This document shows, piece by piece, positions 15,359 through 49,369 of a stretch of 64,000 nucleotides of DNA. The notes below the pieces were generated by a model. The model was not told where the DNA came from. It saw nothing but the letters and a program-made list of their open reading frames with translations, and searched no databases. This DNA is from an uncultured archaeon (GTDB lineage: Archaea > Halobacteriota > Methanosarcinia > Methanosarcinales > Methanoperedenaceae). The stretch covers positions 1 through 64,000 of the forward strand of contig CABMII010000161.1 in NCBI GenBank assembly GCA_902386255.1. The letters run 5' to 3'. The stretch's first letter is position 1, and each line of letters begins with the position of its first letter. The translations under genes were made by a program, and so were the position numbers.

Positions 15359-16247
15359 TAAAATCCTTTCTAGCTTTTCTTCCCTGACTCACGCATAACT
15401 TTCAGGGCAATGGATACTGTTTTCTTTTATCCATTATTCCGCCTGAAAAACTCGCGGTAGCCATAGTCCTGTAATCTTCTGCTGATATAACCGGCGCAGC
15501 GATTCCATTCACGGTCTGCTTGCTTATGCATCCTTCGAGTAATTCAGTACCCGCCTTTTTATAAGTTCGTATTTTTTGTCAAATAATTTTGGTGCGTTTG
15601 CAACTCCAGACCAGCTCCAACCGAATTCGGAACATATTTTACGAAAATAGTTTAAAATTATTGTATAATATTAATTATTATTTTTAATCAGTTATTTTTT
15701 ATCATATAGACTGTTAGTCATGTGTGTTATAATATGGGCAGAATGGAGTTTTGGTGCTTGGGAGCATAAAAAATCCACCTGCCCACAAGAATACTATGAT
15801 GGTTTTGTTCTATAAATAACTCTATGAAGTATGAACATCTGCTGCTAAAGCATATACAATATTCCATTAAAACTTTTAATTAGTGCAATAGGGTAGAGTT
15901 CGGGGTCGTTAACTCAAACCCATGCAAATTAAGGTTAAATGACCGTTACAATGTGCTTCTGACATGTGCTTATAACACTGTTACCTTTACCTATTCCTTC
16001 TTGCATACTGTGAAATGCAGGGACTGATAGAATACCACCTTAATCCAAATTTGTTTTTTTTCAGTCCTTGCAACCACCTTCTTTGTTTAATGTCGTAATA
16101 AAAATTGTAGATGCTCCGATTACCTAGCCGTCGATCAATTAATTTTATATAAAACTAACAATTATGTTTTTATAATGGATAAATGTTATGATTCGATCAT
16201 CGTAGAAATAAAAAAAATATAAATAGTAGAATTACCAATGAAATATT
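15359..16247. other. 889-bp AT-rich gap, mostly no recognisable gene
   Basis: Apart from the gene relic at 15402-15578 nothing convincing is seen. From about 15600 the sequence is very AT-rich with many stops in all frames and no conserved hairpin, tRNA or array. The last 80 bases probably contain the promoter of the DUF1699 gene at 16248 (TTTTATATAA near 16143 is a TATA candidate, though rather far). Confidence 0.5.
15402..15578 (-). pseudogene. possible relic of a protein-coding gene
   Basis: Between two stops on the minus strand an open frame of about 58 codons has a strongly protein-like reading (KAGTELLEGCISKQTVNG, IAAPVISAEDYRTMATASF, SGGIMDKRKQYPLP) and higher GC than the bases around it. 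It has no start codon. It looks like the C-terminal end of a lost gene. I do not recognise the family. Confidence 0.3.
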
Positions 16248-26084: not shown

Positions 26085-26298
26085 GGCTCGGGAATTGGTT
26101 TTATATCCTTTGGTGTTTGGTGTTCATACAGCTATACGATGATATTATGTCTAAATCCGATTTCAATTCCATACCGGTCAGTTCATACCTAAACGAACTT
26201 AAAATTAACGGTCTCAGTGTGTCCGCGATAGATTATTACACACCCCTCGAATACAGACATTGTATTCACCGTGTATGCTTTTGATATATGCTTTTTGC
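26085..26298. other. non-coding gap, boundary of the polysaccharide island
   Basis: No supported gene is seen between the Fe-S gene and the first winged-helix gene. The left part holds the likely promoter of the fwd operon on the minus strand; base composition becomes AT-rich to the right of here. Confidence 0.4.
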
Positions 26299-26330
26299 AT
26301 GGGTTCTTACTAGTTAAAGTTATTTAAAGA
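26299..26330 (+). promoter_or_regulatory. island promoter element, copy A
   Basis: GGTTCTTACTAGTT followed by AAAGTTATTTAAAGA is an almost exact inverted match of copy B at 34271-34300. The TTATTTAAAG part looks like a TATA box; the CTAGTT part is additional. It lies about 112 bases upstream of the winged-helix gene at 26442, with a leader similar to that of copy E. Confidence 0.65.
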
Positions 26331-26441
26331 ATTGAGTGGGTGGTATGAAATGCAAATAGTTAGTTGCGACTTGAATATTATGAACAGGATAGCTATACGA
26401 AGTCAATATGTTTTATCGAAGCAGCAGGCTAGGGAGCAGAG

Positions 26442-26723
26442 ATGAAACGAGGGAGAAGTAAGTGGGAAATAATCTCGGATATCCTTAAGGTAACACAAGA
26501 AGAAGGAAAAGTGAAAAAGACCCGGATAATGCAAAGGGCATATCTTGACTGGAGAAATTTCCAGAGATATTTTGATTTTCTTTTAACGGAAGGTTTTATA
26601 GCAAAATGTAATCCGGATCCTGAATACTATGAGATAACAGAAAAGGGGAGAAATTTATCGAAGAGATTAAAGGACGTAGCTGCGGTGTTAGATTTAAACG
26701 GAAGTTTCGGGACGAAAAAGTAG
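26442..26723 (+). CDS. small winged-helix DNA-binding protein, paralog 1
   Basis: The 93-residue protein starts MKRGRSKWEIISDILKV and is an archaeal winged helix (HTH_45-like): helices to about residue 45, recognition segment ARAYLDW-like RIMQRAYLDWRNFQRYFDF, and a beta wing AKCNPDPEYYEITEKGRNL. Three close relatives are at 34410, 39590 and 40211, all in the polysaccharide island. GGGAGCAGAG upstream is the ribosome site. About 90 bases of its leader resemble the leader of the 40211 gene, showing duplication of the whole unit. A local regulatory role is inferred. Confidence 0.85.
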   Translation: MKRGRSKWEIISDILKVTQEEGKVKKTRIMQRAYLDWRNFQRYFDFLLTEGFIAKCNPDPEYYEITEKGRNLSKRLKDVAAVLDLNGSFGTKK

Positions 26724-33111: not shown

Positions 33112-34220
33112 TTTATCCCACCAAAATTATTTATTATTTCAACAGTATATTTCAAATCCTCCCCGGTTAATAAAGGATGAACAGGTAAACTCAAAACCGC
33201 CTCTGCCAATCTGGCAGCAACAGGGCAGTTAACATTTTCGTCTGTATAGCCCAAATCCCGGTACAAAGGTTGTCTATGTATTGGCAAAGGATAGTGGATT
33301 GCACACCCAATACCGTTGTCGGTCAGGTATCTGGCAAATTCATCCCTGTTTATTAAATCTTTATCAATTTTCACGACGTACTGGTGGTAAACGTGCCTGA
33401 CATTTCTTTCTTTATGTGGAATTTCTAATCCATCTAATTTTATATGTCTATTCAGATACTCTGCATTCAGGACTCTTTTTCTGTTAAATTCGTCCAGTTT
33501 TTTAAGCTGGACAATTCCAATAGCCGCTTGGATATCGGTCATTCTATAGTTATACCCTAATATCGTATGATAATATTTTGAACTCTGGCCGTGGTTCCTG
33601 AGCAATTTACATAATTCTGCTGCTCGGGTATCATTGGTGGTTATTAACCCACCTTCTCCCGTTGTAATATTTTTTGTGGGATAAAATGAAAAACATCCTG
33701 TGCCGAAACCTCCCACTTTTTGTCCGTAGTATTCGGCGCCATGCGCCTGCGCACAGTCCTCAATTAAAAGTAAATTATTTTCTTCGCATATCTCCGTCAT
33801 CGCTTTAATATCAAAAGGGTGCCCGAAAAGATGTACCCCTATTATTGCTTTTGTTTTGCCTGTTATTTTTGTCCTGACCTCATCCGGATTAATATTAAAA
33901 GTTTTATCATCTACATCAGCAAAAATAGGTTTTGCGTTTTGATACAGAATAGAGTTTGCAGAGGCTATGAATGTGAATGGCGTAGTGATTACTTCATCTC
34001 CCTGTTTAATGCCTAACGCCTTGAGTGCGATATCCAGAGCAATTGTACCATTGCCAACTGCTATTGAATTTTTTACACCGATATAATCTGAAAATGCATC
34101 TTCGAAATCGCCAACAGCCTTTCCCTGGGCAAGCAATCCAGATTTTAACACTTCTTCAATGGCTTTCAATTCTTCATTAGTTGTAATTGGTTTTGCTATT
34201 GGAATATGTATTTTTTTCAT
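33108..34220 (-). CDS. DegT family aminotransferase (WbpE type)
   Basis: A PLP-dependent sugar aminotransferase, first gene of the leftward operon. The lysine is in FSFYPTKNITTGEGG and the acidic LLIEDCAQAHGA precedes it. Similarity to WbpE plus coupling to a WbpB-type oxidoreductase suggests amination of the 3-keto group of UDP-GlcNAcA. The start at 34220 has GGTGA a few bases upstream; a GTG at 34229 would add three residues. The island promoter element copy B is about 50-80 bases upstream. Confidence 0.92.
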   Translation of the reverse strand: MKKIHIPIAKPITTNEELKAIEEVLKSGLLAQGKAVGDFEDAFSDYIGVKNSIAVGNGTIALDIALKALGIKQGDEVITTPFTFIASANSILYQNAKPIFADVDDKTFNINPDEVRTKITGKTKAIIGVHLFGHPFDIKAMTEICEENNLLLIEDCAQAHGAEYYGQKVGGFGTGCFSFYPTKNITTGEGGLITTNDTRAAELCKLLRNHGQSSKYYHTILGYNYRMTDIQAAIGIVQLKKLDEFNRKRVLNAEYLNRHIKLDGLEIPHKERNVRHVYHQYVVKIDKDLINRDEFARYLTDNGIGCAIHYPLPIHRQPLYRDLGYTDENVNCPVAARLAEAVLSLPVHPLLTGEDLKYTVEIINNFGGIK

Positions 34221-34270
34221 TGCCTTCACCGTACATATATTCAGGATTATCCATACAGCCTGCCACTCAT

Positions 34271-34300
34271 TTCTTTAAATAACTTTAACTAGTAAGAACA
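34271..34300 (-). promoter_or_regulatory. island promoter element, copy B
   Basis: Read on the minus strand: TGTTCTTACTAGTTAAAG and then TTATTTAAAGAA, matching copy A base for base over about 28 positions. It lies at TATA distance from a short leader of the sugar operon starting at 34220. Confidence 0.7.
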
Positions 34301-34339
34301 TGTGCCACAAGCAGGTAGCAAAAGCATACAACAAACAAA

Positions 34340-34357
34340 CCGGGTGCAAGGCCCGGT
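34340..34357 (-). terminator. hairpin terminator after winged-helix paralog 2
   Basis: On the minus strand ACCGGG, a seven-base loop and CCCGGT form a six-pair GC stem, followed by TTTGTTTGTTG. It sits about 55 bases after the stop of the winged-helix gene at 34410 and before promoter copy B, so it separates the two transcripts. Confidence 0.55.
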
Positions 34358-34409
34358 GCTAATTTTCAGAGAAGAACGTTGATACTTTCGCGCCTTCAGA
34401 GGCTGCAAT

Positions 34410-34673
34410 TTATTGTAGAGAAGGGTATATCATTTTGTTCACTTCTTTTAATTTATCCAATACAACCCTCCCCTCCGCTGTCAATTCATAAAATTCAAAA
34501 TCATTATTACTTTTTGCTACCAGACCTTCGTCTAACAGATAATTAAAATATCTCTGGAAAGCTCTCCCGTCAAGATATGTCCCCTGCATTATCCGGGTCT
34601 TGTTCACTTTTTTCTTTTCCTGTATTAATTTGAGAATATCCAGGATTATTTCCCACTTGTTTCTGCGTTTCAT
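34410..34673 (-). CDS. small winged-helix DNA-binding protein, paralog 2
   Basis: An 87-residue paralog of the proteins at 26442, 39590 and 40211, starting MKRRNKWEIILDILKLIQEK and sharing NKTRIMQGTYLDGRAFQRYF. It is the most divergent of the four (QGTYLDGRAF in place of QRAYLDWRNF; SNNDFEFYELT in place of CNPDPEYYEIT), so its DNA target may differ. Promoter element copy C ends about 22 bases before the ATG, which implies a leaderless or very short-leader mRNA. Confidence 0.85.
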   Translation of the reverse strand: MKRRNKWEIILDILKLIQEKKKVNKTRIMQGTYLDGRAFQRYFNYLLDEGLVAKSNNDFEFYELTAEGRVVLDKLKEVNKMIYPSLQ

Positions 34674-34694
34674 TCAATTACATTCTTGCATCTG

Positions 34695-34723
34695 CCTTTA
34701 AATAACTTCAACTAGCGAAGGCA
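34695..34723 (-). promoter_or_regulatory. island promoter element, copy C
   Basis: On the minus strand TGCCTTCGCTAGTTGAAG then TTATTTAAAGG. It shares CTAGTT, AAG and TTATTTAAAG with copies A and B and lies directly in front of winged-helix paralog 2. Confidence 0.65.
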
Positions 34724-34750
34724 TTTGTTACAGACATATATTACTTTGCT

Positions 34751-34925
34751 AAAAAAAAACACTTCTACCAGCCCGCCAAATTCCTATAATCCAGAGATGG
34801 ATTCATAGTGGTTATAATTGTTACAGCAGAGGTGGCATAGTGGTGGTTACACAACCTCTGCTAGAACCTATCTCTATCCATCAATCCCCTGGCTGTCCAA
34901 GGCGCAAGGGATCCAAATTTTTAAA
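34751..34925 (-). ncRNA. candidate structured small RNA, about 175 nt
   Basis: Promoter element copy D (34937-34964, minus) faces a stretch with no usable ORF. The stretch holds two nested stems: an outer one pairing 34793-34800 with 34867-34875 (one bulged base) and an inner nine-pair stem AGCAGAGGT (34825-34833) with ACCTCTGCT (34854-34862). On the minus strand it ends in nine consecutive T (34751-34759), the usual archaeal termination signal. Promoter, stems and T tract together support an RNA gene. No known RNA family is recognised. Confidence 0.5.
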
Positions 34926-34936
34926 ATGACTAAATC

Positions 34937-34964
34937 ATTTAAATAATCATAACTAGTAAATGCA
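34937..34964 (-). promoter_or_regulatory. island promoter element, copy D
   Basis: On the minus strand ATGCATTTACTAGTTATG then ATTATTTAAATG. It keeps CTAGTT and TTATTTAAA at the same spacing as copies A-C and is the only visible promoter for the candidate RNA at 34751-34925. Confidence 0.6.
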
Positions 34965-35012
34965 TCTGCTGGAGGCACATCATGTAAGCAAGAAGCAGCA
35001 AAAAATTAACAA

Positions 35013-35144
35013 CTATAAATTTTCTTTTGGCGGCGGACTTTGTACTAATTTGAAATTATTGTATATCAAATAAAGCTTTTCTATTGTTTTGATATCTATA
35101 CCCGCTTTTAATAATTTCACTCTCTCTTGTGAAGTTTCTAACAT
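35013..35144 (-). CDS. small protein (43 aa), relative of the 40534 protein
   Basis: The frame gives MLETSQERVKLLKAGI, then KTIEKLYLIYNNFKLV, and ends PPPKENL. The first 35 residues match the N-terminus of the 95-residue protein at 40534 (MLETSQERVKLLKAGI, KTIERLYIVENNFKIV), which establishes it as a real coding sequence or a recent remnant of one. An ATG three codons earlier (35153) is also possible. Function unknown. Both members lie near a winged-helix paralog. Confidence 0.65.
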   Translation of the reverse strand: MLETSQERVKLLKAGIDIKTIEKLYLIYNNFKLVQSPPPKENL

Positions 35145-35229
35145 AACCGCCATTCTATGAAAATGAATAAGCTCTCTGATTAATAAATATCTGAGTGTTT
35201 TTACCCTATGCTACTGGCATATTTTTCTA

Positions 35230-35262
35230 ACATGTGCTAATACTTCTTTAAGTTATTTAAGA
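35230..35262 (+). promoter_or_regulatory. island promoter element, copy F
   Basis: ACATGTGCTAATACTTCTTTA then AGTTATTTAAGAAC on the plus strand. It is a weaker match, retaining ACATGTG and AGTTATTTAA, and lies about 80 bases upstream of the GT2 gene at 35343. Confidence 0.45.
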
Positions 35263-35342
35263 ACATATGGCAATGCATGCTCTAAAGAAATTACTCTGGA
35301 TTTGCCAGTTATCGTCCTGGATTAAAAACATGAGAGTATATT

Positions 35343-36455
35343 ATGAAACATAGCCAGATAAAAAATGCAAGCGTGGCATTAACGACATTAAATGAGGTAT
35401 CAAAAGAAGTTTTTCCAAATCCGGACAGCCCAAAGTTTAATGCGTCGGTGATAGGAGAAAACCCGCATGTTCTGAGTCCTATATTTGGCGAGGATAATGG
35501 TAATAGAAAAAATAAAAATAAAATCTTAAATAATATGCAAAAAGATGAAATTAAATTATCTGTCGATACTTATAGACCAAGAATAATTGCAGGACTTGCT
35601 GCATATAATGAAGAAGAATATATCGGTACCATGGTATTGGGTACACGCTCTTTTGTGGATGAGGTCATTGTCGTAGATGACGGCAGTTCAGACAGAACAG
35701 GTAAATTTGCTTCGCTGGCTTGCGCAAGGGTAATAAAACACAAGGAGAACCAGGGTAAAGGTAAAGCAATTCAGACTATTCTTGAAGAAGCAAAGAAAAT
35801 GGACGTTGATGTGGTTGTGCTTCTTGATGCAGATTGCCAGCATAATCCCGATGAGATCCCGCGGCTTCTTGAACCAATAAGAAACGGTGAAGCTGATCTG
35901 GTTAATGGTTCACGATTTCTCGATAAAAAGAGCAAGATACCATTATACAGAAGGATCGGGCAGCACATACTCACCCTGTCAACCAACTTATGTTCAGGGA
36001 CATCTATTACTGACTCTCAGAGCGGTTTCCGTGCCCTCTCAAGAAAGGCAATTAACTCAATTAAATTAATTGAAAATGGAATGGGTGTGGAATCCGAGAT
36101 GATACAAAAAGCCAGAGAGTCCAATCTCAGGATAAAGGAGGTCCCCATCGGATGCAGGTACGACGTGAACGGATCAACTTTTAATCCCGTTAGTCATGGA
36201 TTTCGCGTCCTTGGTACGATAATGGACCAGTTGCAAAGAAAACATCCACTACTTTATTTCGGGATACTTGGATTAGTGCTAATGAGCATTGGAGGGTTTT
36301 TATCTTTACAAACATTTTATGGATACTATATCTTAAGTCAGTTCTGGATAGGAAAAGCCATGATTGCAATGTTAATATTGCTAATAGGTATTTTTGCTAT
36401 GTTCACAGGATTAATATTAAACAGCATTTCTATTATGATGAAGGAATTAAAATAA
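35343..36455 (+). CDS. family 2 glycosyltransferase, dolichyl-phosphate-sugar synthase-like
   Basis: The GT-A domain begins near residue 80 (IIAGLAAYNEEEYIG) and carries VIVVDDGSSDRTG, the DXD-type LLDADCQHNPDEI and NGSRF. Two hydrophobic helices end the protein (PLLYFGILGLVLMSIGGF and AMIAMLILLIGIFAMF). This resembles AglJ/Dpm-type enzymes that load sugars on dolichol phosphate. The first 64 residues are Asn/Lys-rich and not part of the domain; an internal ATG at 35535 lacks a ribosome site, so I keep 35343. First gene of the rightward half of the island. Confidence 0.85.
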   Translation: MKHSQIKNASVALTTLNEVSKEVFPNPDSPKFNASVIGENPHVLSPIFGEDNGNRKNKNKILNNMQKDEIKLSVDTYRPRIIAGLAAYNEEEYIGTMVLGTRSFVDEVIVVDDGSSDRTGKFASLACARVIKHKENQGKGKAIQTILEEAKKMDVDVVVLLDADCQHNPDEIPRLLEPIRNGEADLVNGSRFLDKKSKIPLYRRIGQHILTLSTNLCSGTSITDSQSGFRALSRKAINSIKLIENGMGVESEMIQKARESNLRIKEVPIGCRYDVNGSTFNPVSHGFRVLGTIMDQLQRKHPLLYFGILGLVLMSIGGFLSLQTFYGYYILSQFWIGKAMIAMLILLIGIFAMFTGLILNSISIMMKELK

Positions 36456-36501
36456 CATTAATTTCTAGAGGTTTATTCGAATACAGCAGGAAGTAATATT
36501 C

Positions 36502-37890
36502 ATGATGAGAATACTGCACCATACAGAAACTGAGAACTGTGATAATAGCATTCAGTTTCCCTCATATTTTATTGCAAAGGATTACGAACATACTGCCAAA
36601 TATTCAAAGTTCGGTTCTTCAGGGATGAGAGGTCTCGCAAACAGAGAAATAACTCCTCAGCTTGCACTGAATTTCGGGCTTGCAGTGGGAAGTATTTATT
36701 CAAATGTAATTATAGGGCATGACCCCCGTGTATCGAGCGAGATGCTGGAAAGCGCTGTCGTTGCAGGTCTTCTCTCAGCCGGAAGCGAGGTGGTTAAACT
36801 CGGGATGGCTCCTACACCTACGCTTGCCCTTGCCTCACATGATTTTGACTGCGGTATTATGATTACTGCTTCCCATAATCCTGCCCAGTACAACGGAATG
36901 AAAATTTTTAAAAAGGGAATGTCCTTTGATACAAAACATCAGGAAGAGATAGAGGATGTACTAAACAAAGAAAGGTTCAGGTATGCAAGCTGGGAGAAAA
37001 CGGGAAGTCTGGGCGTGATGGAAAATGCTCTAAAAAAGCATAGCGAGACTATATTGAAAAATACTAAAAGTGCAAGCTTGAATATTGTATTGGATTGCGG
37101 ATGCGGTGCAGGCTCTGCGCTCACCCCGTATGTCCTTAGAGAGATGGGGTGCCATGTGATAACGCTAAATTCCCAGCCAGATGGGCATTTCCCGGGAAGA
37201 AATCCTGAACCGGATGAAGAGAATCTCAGTCATTTAAAAAGTGTTGTAAAAGCCACAGGTGCAGACCTGGGTATAGCGAATGATGGGGATGCGGACAGGA
37301 TGATGGCGGTTGATAATCAGGGGCGCTTTGTCGCCGGGGATAAAATGCTTGCCTTCTTTGCGGTCAGGGAAGCTAAAAGAGCAATAGCAGTTCCCGTTGA
37401 TTCTTCACGGGTTATTGATGACGTCCTTAAAGGAATAAAAATCTCACGCACAAAAGTCGGAGACGTCTATATTTCTGAAGAGCTTAATAAAATAGAAGGG
37501 GATTTCGGAGGTGAGCCTTCCGGCGCATGGATATTCCCCAGGATATCCTATTGTCCCGATGGCATCCTTGCAGCAGCTAAACTCGTCGAAATGCTGGAAG
37601 AGGAAGGGAATTTTAGCACGTTGCTTGATGCAATACCCGAGTATCCTATGAAACGTGGCGCTTTTCCATGCCAAGATAAAAAGATAGCTATGATCAGAAT
37701 AACCGAAGAATTAGAGAAGCTTGGGAGAATAAATGCACTCGATGGCGTCAGGGTGGACCTTGAGGAGGGGTGGATACTTGTGCGCCCAAGTGGCACAGAG
37801 CCGAAAATAAGAATAACAGTTGAATCCAAAAATGAGTGCGCAGGGCTATATAAGGTTGCGGAGGAAATTGTAAAGGGAGCGATAGCATGA
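36502..37890 (+). CDS. phosphohexomutase (phosphoglucosamine/phosphomannomutase type)
   Basis: An alpha-D-phosphohexomutase that moves phosphate between C6 and C1 of a hexose. The phosphoserine loop is TASHNPAQYNGMK, the metal loop is DGDADRMM, the sugar loop is GGEPSGAW and the phosphate loop is RPSGTEPKIRI. About 30 extra residues precede the usual start (KFGSSGMRG). Archaeal GlmM- and ManB-type enzymes cannot be told apart by these motifs; its place in a cluster that needs UDP-GlcNAc favours phosphoglucosamine mutase. Confidence 0.9.
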   Translation: MMRILHHTETENCDNSIQFPSYFIAKDYEHTAKYSKFGSSGMRGLANREITPQLALNFGLAVGSIYSNVIIGHDPRVSSEMLESAVVAGLLSAGSEVVKLGMAPTPTLALASHDFDCGIMITASHNPAQYNGMKIFKKGMSFDTKHQEEIEDVLNKERFRYASWEKTGSLGVMENALKKHSETILKNTKSASLNIVLDCGCGAGSALTPYVLREMGCHVITLNSQPDGHFPGRNPEPDEENLSHLKSVVKATGADLGIANDGDADRMMAVDNQGRFVAGDKMLAFFAVREAKRAIAVPVDSSRVIDDVLKGIKISRTKVGDVYISEELNKIEGDFGGEPSGAWIFPRISYCPDGILAAAKLVEMLEEEGNFSTLLDAIPEYPMKRGAFPCQDKKIAMIRITEELEKLGRINALDGVRVDLEEGWILVRPSGTEPKIRITVESKNECAGLYKVAEEIVKGAIA

Positions 37891-37924
37891 AAGCAGTCAT
37901 AAATGCCTGAAAAGGGGTATTTAT

Positions 37925-39367
37925 TTGCCTATAGCATTTCTTTTTCTGCGTTTTGATACTTTGTTTCTGAGGGCTATTGTAATTGTTGTCATAATAGCTA
38001 TGTGTGTTCCTCTAACTTCAGGTAATACCTATTATATAGCAATGAATGGGGATGATACCAATCCGGGTACAGAATCATGGCCATGGCTGACAATCCAGAA
38101 AGCGGCGAATACGATGGTTGCAGGCGAGACGGTTTACGTCATGACCGGAACATACAGCGAACATGTCGTTACCAAAAAGTCCGGAACATCGAATAATGAC
38201 ATTAAGTTTGTTGTGTATCCCGGGGAGACGGTCACGATTAGCGGCGGCGGATTTTATGTAGATAAAAACTTTATCACTATTGATGGGTTTAACTTTGTAA
38301 ATGGTGGAACCGCAATAGATATAATTCCACGCCCTCCCGGAGGAGGAAATAATATAACGATAAGGAACAATAAAATGGTCTCGATTTTTTCTGATGCGCC
38401 GTTCAGGTACGGATGGTACGACAAAGCTTATGGAGACGGCCATAACCTCATTCTTGAGAATAACGATATTGAAGCACTCCCAGGCTCTGCCAGGATTGAA
38501 GCAGCAACATTAAGCGGCCTGGATGGATTTATAGTGAGAGACAACACTTTTGCCAATGCTAACGGAGAGGGGCTGAATATGAAAGATAATACAAAGAACG
38601 GTAAGGTCTATAATAATACTTTTAAGCCCTCATCCCAAGCGGTTTTATATTTCGATGCCCGGGGTACGGTATCTAATATTGATGTTTATAACAATATTAT
38701 AAAAGCTGCTGCTGTTTTACAGAATGAAGATAATGATATCAGGTATAATTATACTGCTGTTATCGACAATATCAGCATATATAATAATATTTTTTATGGT
38801 GGCAATTCTTCCTTGAGAGTGGGTCCGTTTTATATTCGTGGTGTGAATGTAGCAGGAACAATAAAGAATGTCAGAATAATAAACAATGATTTCGAGGGGA
38901 CATATGGAGTTGATGTGGGAGGCGGCTTACCTAAAGTTGAAAACGTTATAATACGAAATAACATTTTCAGTAATACAGGAATGAGTGTATTATCAGGTAC
39001 TGTTACAATAGATCACAATATTATGTTCAATACTCCCTGCGTTGGCACTAATTATATAGCACAATACCCCGAGTTCGTGAATCCCGCAGGCGGTGACTTC
39101 CATCTGCAAAGCACTTCTCCCGCCATAGACAGAGGTTCACCGATTGGCGCTCCAGGCATGGATTTTGACTGGAATCTGCGACCTCAAGGTTTTGGGTATG
39201 ACATTGGCGCTTTTGAGTTTCATAACATTATGGCAGTGCAGAATGATACCGGCAACAACAACACAATCGGAAAGAGCGGGATTGAGCATGCAGTAATAGA
39301 TTATTTTCATAACATAATAACAAAAGTTATGGAAACCGTGTGGGCATTCTTTAGAAGATATATTTAA
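37925..39367 (+). CDS. secreted right-handed parallel beta-helix protein
   Basis: A TTG start at 37925 follows AAGGGG and gives a signal peptide (residues about 10-33). The mature part opens with YYIAMNGDDTNPGTESWPW, the DUF1565-like entry of beta-helix proteins, and then has repeating coils rich in N-N-I (ITIRNNKM, LILENNDI, IRNNIF). The fold occurs in polysaccharide lyases and epimerases. No lyase catalytic residues are certain. In this island it may modify or bind the surface polymer. It ends with a hydrophobic/aromatic stretch that could be membrane-associated. Confidence 0.75.
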   Translation: MPIAFLFLRFDTLFLRAIVIVVIIAMCVPLTSGNTYYIAMNGDDTNPGTESWPWLTIQKAANTMVAGETVYVMTGTYSEHVVTKKSGTSNNDIKFVVYPGETVTISGGGFYVDKNFITIDGFNFVNGGTAIDIIPRPPGGGNNITIRNNKMVSIFSDAPFRYGWYDKAYGDGHNLILENNDIEALPGSARIEAATLSGLDGFIVRDNTFANANGEGLNMKDNTKNGKVYNNTFKPSSQAVLYFDARGTVSNIDVYNNIIKAAAVLQNEDNDIRYNYTAVIDNISIYNNIFYGGNSSLRVGPFYIRGVNVAGTIKNVRIINNDFEGTYGVDVGGGLPKVENVIIRNNIFSNTGMSVLSGTVTIDHNIMFNTPCVGTNYIAQYPEFVNPAGGDFHLQSTSPAIDRGSPIGAPGMDFDWNLRPQGFGYDIGAFEFHNIMAVQNDTGNNNTIGKSGIEHAVIDYFHNIITKVMETVWAFFRRYI

Positions 39368-39441
39368 CTGAGATTTTATCTCTATTGGATTGGAATTGTT
39401 GTCAATAATTAATTGCGGCAGAGGTGAACGGAGATAGAGAG

Positions 39442-39525
39442 ATGAAGACTATTCAGGTTGCATTATTAATAACCATAATAATGATGATTATGATTATAAT
39501 TATATACATGGAAAAATATATGTAG
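39442..39525 (+). CDS. small single-helix membrane peptide (27 aa)
   Basis: ATG at 39442 after GGAGATAGAGAG. The product MKTIQVALLITIIMMIMIII followed by IYMEKYM is almost entirely one hydrophobic helix with short polar ends. It is below the usual gene-calling size. The ribosome site and the clean transmembrane profile support it; similarity to a known small protein is not apparent. It lies 64 bases before winged-helix paralog 3. Confidence 0.4.
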   Translation: MKTIQVALLITIIMMIMIIIIYMEKYM

Positions 39526-39589
39526 TAATGAGAAGTTATTTTGCTTTGTCTTGTCTATGCAAAAACGGGGTGTGTTGAGAGTGATTTAA

Positions 39590-39844
39590 TTGAAAAAAGA
39601 AAGAAGCAGATGGGAAATAATCTCGGATATTCTTAAAGTAACCAGGGAAGAAAAAAAAGTGAAAAAGACACGAATAATGAGGCGGGCAAATATTGACTGG
39701 ATAAACTTCCAGAGATACTTAGATTTTCTATTAGAAAAAGGTTTTATAGCGAAGTGTAATCCGGATCCTGAATACTATGAAATAACAGAGAATGGTAGAA
39801 ATTTATCGGAGAGATTGAAGGAAGCGAATGCGATATTGGATTAA
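39590..39844 (+). CDS. small winged-helix DNA-binding protein, paralog 3
   Basis: An 84-residue paralog with a TTG start (GAGAGTGAT upstream) and sequence KKERSRWEIISDILKVTREE. It shares VKKTRIMRRANIDWINFQRY and CNPDPEYYEITENGR with paralogs 1 and 4. Unlike those genes it has no copy of the island promoter element directly upstream and may be read with the small membrane peptide at 39442. Confidence 0.85.
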   Translation: MKKERSRWEIISDILKVTREEKKVKKTRIMRRANIDWINFQRYLDFLLEKGFIAKCNPDPEYYEITENGRNLSERLKEANAILD

Positions 39845-40064
39845 GATGGGAGTTCCAAAAATTTTAATCCCATACCTCATCATGTCATTCTCTTTATGAG
39901 TAAACACATATTCAATTTTTTATCTAGTTTTACAAAAGAAAATTTAAAATTTCTGGTTTCAGAAAATTGTTCAGAAAGCATAAGGTAAATAATACCAAAG
40001 CATTGCGTTTTCGCTTATATATAATAAAAATAGGATAATTTATAAAAAAAATGATATGTGCTTC
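39845..40064. other. AT-rich gap between winged-helix paralogs 3 and 4
   Basis: No supported gene. A 30-codon ATG frame at 39896-39988 has no ribosome site. The right end carries promoter element copy E. Confidence 0.4.
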
Positions 40065-40100
40065 GAACATATGTTCTTCCTAGCTGAAGTTATTTAAAGG
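40065..40100 (+). promoter_or_regulatory. island promoter element, copy E
   Basis: GAACATATGTTCTTCCTAGC then TGAAGTTATTTAAAGG. It retains the upstream palindrome GAACATATGTTC, CTAG and the TATA-like TTATTTAAAG. It lies about 110 bases upstream of winged-helix paralog 4, with a leader similar to that of paralog 1. Confidence 0.65.
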
Positions 40101-40210
40101 ATTGTACCGCTGATATGGAGTACAAGTTGGTGTGACTTGAGTATTGTGAACAAGATAGCAATACGAACGAAGATCAATGTGGCTTATCATTATCAGTAAA
40201 GGGAGTAGAA

Positions 40211-40483
40211 ATGAAAAGAGAGAGAAGTAAATGGGAAGTAATTTTGGATATTCTTAAGGTAATTCAGGAAGAGGAGAAAGTGAAAAAGACCCGGATAATG
40301 CAAAGGGCATATCTTGACTGGAGAAATTTCCAGAGGTATTTTGACTTTCTTTTAGCGGAAGGTTTTGTAGCAAAATGCAATCCAATCCCTGAATACTATG
40401 AGTTAACAGAGAATGGGAGACATTTATCGGAGAAATTGAAGGGAGTAGCCGAAATGTTGGGAAGTTCCCGGATAAAAAGGTAA
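40211..40483 (+). CDS. small winged-helix DNA-binding protein, paralog 4
   Basis: This 90-residue protein is nearly identical to paralog 1 over residues 1-75 (MKRERSKWEVILDILKV, KKTRIMQRAYLDWRNFQRYF, AKCNPIPEYYELTENGRHL). It has a GGGAG ribosome site. The upstream 90 bases also align with those of paralog 1 (for example GACTTGAGTATTGTGAACA with GACTTGAATATTATGAACA), so promoter, leader and gene were copied together. It is followed by two small genes of unknown role. Confidence 0.87.
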   Translation: MKRERSKWEVILDILKVIQEEEKVKKTRIMQRAYLDWRNFQRYFDFLLAEGFVAKCNPIPEYYELTENGRHLSEKLKGVAEMLGSSRIKR

Positions 40484-48258: not shown

Positions 48259-48484
48259 ATTTGTTATTCATGTTGCTAATTAAACATTAAGCTTTAGGTA
48301 TGATGGAGTGATGTATAGTATCAAAAAAATTTCGCATCAATTTTTTTCCTGAATTTTATGATCAGGGCATAAAATTTACGTCGCGAAAGCAATCATAAGA
48401 ATGGATAAATTAGAAAAAAGCGAAGTAGAGAAATGACATTGAAATGGTGAGTATAGAAAAACAAGTAATATAACATATGTTTAT
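48259..48484. other. AT-rich gap before the DUF1919 gene
   Basis: No gene supported. It holds the probable promoter of the leftward GT4 gene and short direct repeats of the palindrome AACATATGTT near 48471-48492. Confidence 0.4.
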
Positions 48485-48518
48485 AACATATGTTTCTAGT
48501 ACTTATGTTTTTATAATT
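48485..48518 (+). promoter_or_regulatory. possible island promoter element, copy G (degenerate)
   Basis: AACATATGTTTCTAGTACTT then ATGTTTTTATAATT: the upstream palindrome and CTAGT are kept, but the TATA part is altered. It lies about 95 bases before the DUF1919 gene. Confidence 0.35.
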
Positions 48519-48610
48519 CAACAGGCGCATTCACCAAGGATTGAAACTTAGGGAAAGTAGTATTATTCTCATGAGGAATATAAAATGAATAAAACAGTAG
48601 GGATATAACA

Positions 48611-49369
48611 GTGTTTTTAGTATTTGTCCTCATAGGCACAGGATTAGCAGAACAGAATTTAGTGTTAAACCCAAGTGTAGGGAAAGGAAATGGAACTGAA
48701 CCTAAAGTCTTGAGATTCTTAAAAACAGGCTTTAAAGTCACCAATAACTTTTTAAATGTAAAAAAAAAATACGATAGATATCTTTTAAGAAAGCGTGTAA
48801 AAATTAGAAATTTCTCAATCATATCAAATAATTGTTGGGGTGGTAGCGTTTATCAGGATTTAGGATTAAAATATACAACTCCCACAATTGGTTTATTTTT
48901 TTATGCTCCATGTTACATTAAAATGTTAAAGAATCTAGATTTTTTTTTAAAATCAGAAATTAGGTTTATTAGCAAATCTAAATATGAAGACGCCAACACA
49001 AGAAGAGAAAATGGGAAAAAATATCCGATAGGTTTATTGGGAGAAGAAATTGAAATACATTTCGTACATTATGCAACCCCTCAAGAAGCAAAAGAAAAAT
49101 GGAATAGAAGATTGCAGCGCTTGAATATGGAAAATCTTTTCATTTCATTTTCAGATAGGGATTTATGCGAACCTGAACATATAAAAGAATTCGATAATTT
49201 ACCATTTAAACACAAAGTTTGTTTTACAGCAAAAGAGTATCCAAATTACAAATCTGTTGTGTGGTTAAAAGGATATAAAAATGAACCTTATATAGGCGAT
49301 ATTGTTTGGAATCCAGAAGAGTATAAGAAATATTTTGATGTTGCCAATTGGCTTAATGATACCTCATAA
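48611..49369 (+). CDS. DUF1919 family protein (exopolysaccharide-associated)
   Basis: From residue about 70 the protein matches DUF1919: FSIISNNCWGGSVYQDLGLKY split as IISNNCWGGSVYQDLG, then PTIGLFFYAPCYIKML, YPIGLLGEEIEIHFVHY and FSDRDLC. DUF1919 proteins occur in exopolysaccharide loci; their activity is unproven. The assigned start is a GTG with no clear ribosome site. The first 65 residues are not part of the domain, and an ORF opposes them on the minus strand, so the true N-terminus is uncertain. Confidence 0.75.
   Translation: MFLVFVLIGTGLAEQNLVLNPSVGKGNGTEPKVLRFLKTGFKVTNNFLNVKKKYDRYLLRKRVKIRNFSIISNNCWGGSVYQDLGLKYTTPTIGLFFYAPCYIKMLKNLDFFLKSEIRFISKSKYEDANTRRENGKKYPIGLLGEEIEIHFVHYATPQEAKEKWNRRLQRLNMENLFISFSDRDLCEPEHIKEFDNLPFKHKVCFTAKEYPNYKSVVWLKGYKNEPYIGDIVWNPEEYKKYFDVANWLNDTS

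Follow-up and report, generated by a model that had tools for sequence, protein, structure and literature searches.

In a Ca. Methanoperedens genome, we resolve a promoter-like element built of two tandem 13-bp repeats set at a fixed distance before a BRE and a TATA box, with 22 full copies on eight contigs according to two sequence models. We directly observe the element itself, its copy number, its spacing, its targets and its distribution, as well as its association with genes for winged-helix (wHTH) proteins. On balance, we consider the element likely to be a composite archaeal promoter with an EarA-like activator site, which defines a multi-locus cell-envelope/EPS regulon and is run by wHTH paralogs. 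Methanoperedens are methane-oxidising archaea known for extracellular electron transfer and growth in aggregates, and a search of the available literature found no paper on their promoters or small RNAs. The analysis provides a prediction of the cis element and of its targets on eight contigs, together with candidates for the regulators and for hairpin RNAs.

Architecture of the element and its copies in the window

The window, by which we mean the whole stretch of 64,000 nt analysed, contains eight copies, which align without gaps over 50 columns when anchored on the TATA box:

26282–26331 (+), copy 1: faces the wHTH gene at 26442; 58.8 bits, rank 1 in the window
34271–34320 (−), copy 2: faces the nucleotide-sugar operon; predicted TSS ~34251, ATG at 34220 with GGTGA upstream
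34694–34743 (−), copy 3: faces the wHTH gene at 34673; the predicted TSS adjoins the ATG (leaderless)
34935–34984 (−), copy 4: faces a family C hairpin RNA candidate
35215–35264 (+), copy 5: faces the GT2 gene at 35343
40052–40101 (+), copy 6: faces the wHTH gene at 40211, then polysaccharide genes
15808–15857 (−), copy 7: faces a family B hairpin RNA candidate; 33.5 bits, E 8e-8 with the wider 40-site model
48471–48520 (+), copy 8: weak TATA box; faces the DUF1919 gene at 48611; 24.6 bits with the wider 40-site model

Seven of these had been proposed in the initial annotation, and all seven are present at the places and on the strands given there, with fixed spacing and facing starts as claimed. 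The site at 48485 (+), listed there as a weaker copy, is weak yet above the order-level control maximum (24.6 vs. 20.6 bits); copy 7, which lies outside the polysaccharide island, had been missed. When 127,902 window positions are scored with a matrix of 20 own-genome copies, the eight sites reach 27.6–58.8 bits and the next position 9.8; in a leave-one-out analysis, seven window copies are recovered, each at rank 7 or better among these positions. The copies at 26299 and 40065 also share leader sequence past the element, and part of the copy number is owed to duplication.

The genes beside the element in the window are the following:

26442–26723 (+), wHTH paralog (HTH_45): Pfam PF14947, 76 bits
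34410–34673 (−), wHTH paralog (HTH_45): PF14947, 69 bits
39590–39844 (+), wHTH paralog (HTH_45): PF14947, 76.5 bits; no element directly upstream
40211–40483 (+), wHTH paralog (HTH_45): PF14947, 70 bits
26935–34229 (−), nucleotide-sugar operon: PseC/LegC-like aminotransferases, GFO/IDH-like, PIG-L-like, epimerase-like, WbqC-like, acyltransferase-like and NDP-sugar dehydrogenase genes (two aminotransferases and the dehydrogenase by NCBIfam, the others named by eye)
35343–36455 (+), glycosyltransferase family 2: PF00535, 93 bits
48611–49369 (+), DUF1919 protein: PF08942, 207 bits

Read 5' to 3', the element consists of two 13-bp repeats (RCATRTGYTTYNR), CTWGTT, the BRE (TTAAAG) and the TATA box (TTATTTAA). 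Among own-genome copies, the consensus of the full element is TGATATGTGCTTCTAGCATATGCTCTTACTAGTTAAAGTTATTTAAAG, that of the two repeats is GCATATGCT and ATATGTGCT, and the second repeat ends 8–10 nt before the BRE. Two repeats are the rule, with three at some places (C53, L087). The ACATRTG motif of the initial annotation is really the second of the two RCATRTGYTTYNR repeats, and several copies deviate from it (GCATGGG, ACAAATG, GCAGATG).

The suggestion that the element is more than an ordinary TATA box is borne out because shuffling the upstream columns, with the BRE and TATA box kept, removes the signal (0–1 matches above 15 bits vs. 8 with the real matrix). A TATA-only reading is thus ruled out, as the signal needs the upstream columns. 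The upstream module (columns 1–36) contributes ~31 bits beyond the BRE and TATA box, and the upstream repeats (columns 1–24) ~22 bits. Taken alone, the tandem repeat with at most one mismatch has 15 matches genome-wide and none in a reversed control. Within the window, AAGTTATTTAAAG alone, with up to two mismatches, occurs 11 times vs. 4.0 expected (maximum of 9 in 100 shuffles). The significance of the element lies in the combination of its parts, as CTTNCTAGTT alone is not above chance in the window (14 vs. 12.7 expected).

Tandem 13-bp repeats also appear without a recognisable TATA box at C35:29486, C145:745 and C53:4540, in three copies on C53. A further sequence common to several loci, TTAAATGACCGTTACAATGTGCTTCNNACATGTGCTT..ACTTTTACCTATTCC, has the 13-bp repeats without a TATA box as well and adjoins the family A and B RNAs described below. 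It is found at 15930–16000 (+) in the window, on C9 (L058 ~1990–1880, −) and, only in part, on C143 (L057 ~2290–2250, −).

Targets and distribution across genomes

The pattern CTAGTTNAAGTTATTTAAAG gave the first sign of the element on a second contig, C68. A first model, made from sequence only with ten copies, finds twelve further full copies outside its training set (E 7e-11 to 7e-3), and a second, wider model of forty sites confirms them. Because 20 of the 22 full copies are within the training set of the second model, its scores for those 20 are not independent, whereas the scores of the first model are. In the genome-wide searches with the models, in line with a check proposed in the initial annotation, the copies are rare and face starts. 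Together with the information in the upstream module, this favors the earlier idea of an operator or activator site serving a regulon; the regulon is not island-specific, however, as copies are also found on C68, C103, C143, C9, C152, C13 and C145.

Of the 22 copies, four face wHTH genes, eight lead to sugar/EPS/surface loci and another eight to non-coding hairpins; of the remaining two, one precedes a small ORF and the other a stretch before a further putative helix-turn-helix gene. Contig C68 holds a second XrtA/EPS locus with an EpsH/XrtA-type exosortase and EpsI. The genes behind its copies are those for a small surface protein and for two archaeal GlmU enzymes, as well as a KaiC-like gene that precedes a DUF11 surface protein, and another target there is a non-coding hairpin; two of the C68 copies (27032 and 32011) share leaders through duplication. 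The tail of the small surface protein resembles a sorting signal by eye only, as the protein has no match to any PEF-CTERM model. On C103, the copy faces an XrtA-system polysaccharide deacetylase (TIGR03006, 292 bits; cut-off 276), and on C152, three copies in a row lead to a hairpin RNA candidate, a small ORF and a wHTH gene. Not every neighbour is an envelope gene, however: downstream of one family A copy there is a phosphoglycerate mutase-like gene. Neither the exact core of the element nor the wHTH was found on viral contigs.

The C68 exosortase matches PF09721 with 186 bits and exceeds the TIGR02602 cut-off, while its 180 bits against the XrtA model fall below that model's own cut-off of 208. 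A PEF-CTERM/archaeosortase C system is not supported, the enzyme instead fitting EpsH/XrtA-type models. The same archaeon has both this XrtA/EpsH-type exosortase with its EpsI gene (L010:17039–18630) and an archaeosortase A (L059:8729–9544). The exosortase is ruled out as the partner of the element, with XrtA present in 4/13 element-positive vs. 6/18 element-negative genomes (p = 1).

Within the genus, the wider 40-site model finds copies in ~12/30 congeners. The 49 genomes of the order outside the genus give three matches, none above 20.6 bits, and in a phylum sample of 148 genomes, outside matches at E ≤ 1e-3 occur in six genomes, all of one family. The sites inspected in that family (L197–L201) face RDD-like, Hsp20-like and ferritin-like genes and one HTH_45-like gene (names by eye), and we treat them as a related, more distant form of the element. 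The sister-species copies precede wHTH and GT2-like genes as well as genes for secreted proteins and for a lipoprotein that recurs (identities by eye); these sites have diverged, yet spacing and gene class are kept.

Candidate hairpin RNAs

The initial annotation placed a non-coding stretch behind the copy at 34937 (−). There is indeed no coding target, but the stretch is not empty, as it contains a two-hairpin RNA candidate, and candidates of this kind are seen again behind seven further copies. The window holds two candidates:

34825–34915 (−), candidate structured RNA, family C: ATCCC..GGGGAT at the predicted TSS plus AGCAGAGGTTG..CCACCTCTGCT; MFE −39.4, z −3.4, first pair at the predicted TSS
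15733–15788 (−), candidate structured RNA, family B: hairpin TGTGGGCAGG..CTGCCCATA at the predicted TSS; MFE −28.4, z −4.4

A relative of family C with a similar arrangement is found at C68:41920 (+) and one of family B at C145:3264 (+), so that the two hairpins of family C and the family B stem (GGGCAGGT..CTGCCC) each have two copies; the family A stem (GGGCAAAGGG..CCCTTTGCCC) has five, in two species. Downstream of the family B RNA on C145 lies a DUF433-like/toxin-like gene pair (L061:3574–4166; by eye).

Where no reading frame is near, which applies to nine copies (eight in the own genome and one in the congener G010), stems of 8–15 bp follow the element. In these nine, one stem begins within 1–3 nt of the predicted TSS (TATA centre + 25). 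This stem is the best one in families A and B; in family C it is the first hairpin, the best stem being the second. The null expectation for a best stem at the predicted TSS is ~8.5% per site, and because the sites belong to three sequence families, the independent count is about three rather than nine. Mean folding z is −1.9 at 15 non-coding-type sites vs. +0.1 at 16 coding sites.

Membership of the hairpin RNAs in Rfam (4227 families) is ruled out, as none matched: the window gives only a tRNA at gathering, and the search of the family A and B loci, the C68 family C copy and the L072 and L078 sites gives a single match, elsewhere and at chance level. A covariance model built from family A recovers its five members and nothing else; all five stand directly behind the element, and among the other congeners the family is found in G010 only. 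We observe no covariation in its stem because the copies are too alike and too few. As similar hairpins in G010 are part of the leaders of two genes, one for a wHTH and one for a secreted protein, a role as 5' leaders competes with that of stand-alone RNAs. Copies in G028, G012 and G008 (L072, L078 and L183:1704 (−)) are followed by GATGCAC/GGCGCAC..GTGCRTC/GTGCGCC stems that do not start at the predicted TSS and are a possible fourth RNA family.

A more speculative idea, which we hold only tentatively, is that the regulon includes a new class of small structured RNAs beside the self-regulating wHTH family. These would be unrelated families that share the same promoter, a GC-rich stem at +1 and a pyrimidine/C-rich loop (UCUCCUUC, CACCCCCACUCUCC, CCUUCCCCACUCUACC), and their targets in trans would be envelope mRNAs, at sites that resemble Shine-Dalgarno sequences.

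Candidate regulators, rival readings and known systems

Eight HTH_45 genes of the genome exceed the cut-off, four of them in the window (69–76 bits against PF14947; gathering cut-off 25.5) and the others on C68, C152, C116 and C114. The element lies directly before four of the eight, and none is found directly upstream of the other four in the stretches examined (~200 bases only for C114). To our knowledge, neither a target site nor a regulon has been described for HTH_45. Among 31 genomes of the genus, the close wHTH subfamily (defined by a score of ≥105 bits with the A3 model) occurs in 12/13 element-positive vs. 4/18 element-negative genomes (p = 1.7e-4, which overstates the case because the thresholds were set after the tables had been seen and the species are related by descent); the element-positive G026 has only a more distant wHTH. 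Position provides the stronger test: 8/24 held-out sister-species sites have a wHTH gene at a distance of ≤1 kb (0.1 expected), and all eight are on the same strand as that gene, 100–377 bp past its 3' end. The link between the element and the winged-helix genes is therefore supported statistically. Close wHTH homologs in ANME-1/Methanophagales (L089–L103; 48–64% identity) have no such element directly upstream, and their promoters share a different, ACATATRGTTACCATATA-like motif near the start, possibly a diverged operator.

We infer that wHTH proteins bind the element and activate rather than repress. One or more of the small HTH_45 paralogs, each of a single domain, would dock on the two tandem repeats and recruit TFB/TBP to the adjoining BRE and TATA box, as is thought for EarA at archaellum promoters. 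Several of the regulator genes would be under the control of such proteins themselves; the further genes switched on would be those for nucleotide sugars and EPS, for exosortase-associated surface proteins and for the hairpin RNAs, whose predicted 5' end would be the first base of the hairpin. The whole cell-surface programme is probably switched together.

Alternatively, the element may represent a class of promoters that the basal machinery itself recognises, through an alternative TFB/TBP pair or an extended BRE, with wHTH genes being just one kind of target. This would be consistent with the recurrence of CTWCTTAAAG plus a TATA box before Hsp20-like, ferritin-like and wHTH genes in the distant family and with the good conservation of the CTAGTT/BRE/TATA block in the own genome. 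We nonetheless consider it unlikely, as the upstream repeats lie beyond the usual TFB footprint, which does not reach that far, and the element tracks one wHTH subfamily and adjoins its genes. If the repeats were instead a repressor operator, the wHTH proteins would turn the regulon off by negative autoregulation. Small archaeal wHTH proteins are often repressors, and the four wHTH genes behind the element, which encode single-domain, self-targeting proteins, would fit negative feedback; we find this reading rather improbable, given that the repeats are wholly upstream of the BRE, the usual position of an activator, and do not overlap the TATA box or the predicted TSS. Finally, some copies are alike past the element (26299/40065, C68:27032/32011 and the family A RNAs), as would be expected of traces of duplicated or mobile cassettes that are not selected regulatory sites. 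Most copies, however, share the 50-bp element only, the diverged sister-species sites keep spacing and gene class, and the exact core is absent from viral contigs, making this origin very improbable.

For the preferred reading, that of a wHTH-activated promoter, the nearest known architecture is, by analogy, that of EarA sites, and the nearest known biology that of the proteobacterial PEP-CTERM box. EarA is a small DNA-binding regulator of the winged-helix type. It activates the archaellum, a cell-surface programme, in Methanococcus maripaludis and Thermococcales (PMC10665913; PMC5512572), and its sites in Thermococcales lie 9–11 nt upstream of the BRE in up to three repeats (PMC10665913). The system here likewise combines a small wHTH candidate regulator, a tandem short motif at a fixed distance before a BRE and TATA box, and cell-surface targets. 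It may work like EarA without being a member, because the wHTH proteins are of the HTH_45 family and not PF07381 (EarA), against which two of them reach only E 0.012–0.019 (15–16 bits; cut-off 22). The motif also differs, being RCATRTGYTTYNR with a 13-bp period, and our consensus lacks the EarA core TACATA. Further, EarA serves one archaellum operon, while the targets here are scattered and include several self-targeting paralogs, EPS genes and RNAs.

In Proteobacteria, surface genes of the XrtA system share the PEP-CTERM box, a sigma-54 promoter associated with the PrsK/PrsR pair (PMC1569441), in a regulon that was found by phylogenetic profiling (PMC1569441; PMC9850573). Common to both systems is a cis element before dispersed surface-protein genes of an exosortase/EPS system, paired with a regulator of its own (a candidate here), and features of XrtA/PEP-CTERM EPS loci are present here, namely the EpsH-type exosortase and the XrtA-system polysaccharide deacetylase. 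The element described here, in contrast, follows the wHTH rather than the exosortase, and it pairs an archaeal BRE and TATA box with a wHTH candidate in place of sigma-54 and an NtrC-type response regulator. This comparison suggests an archaeal promoter as the means by which an EPS system of the exosortase type, familiar from bacteria, is controlled here.
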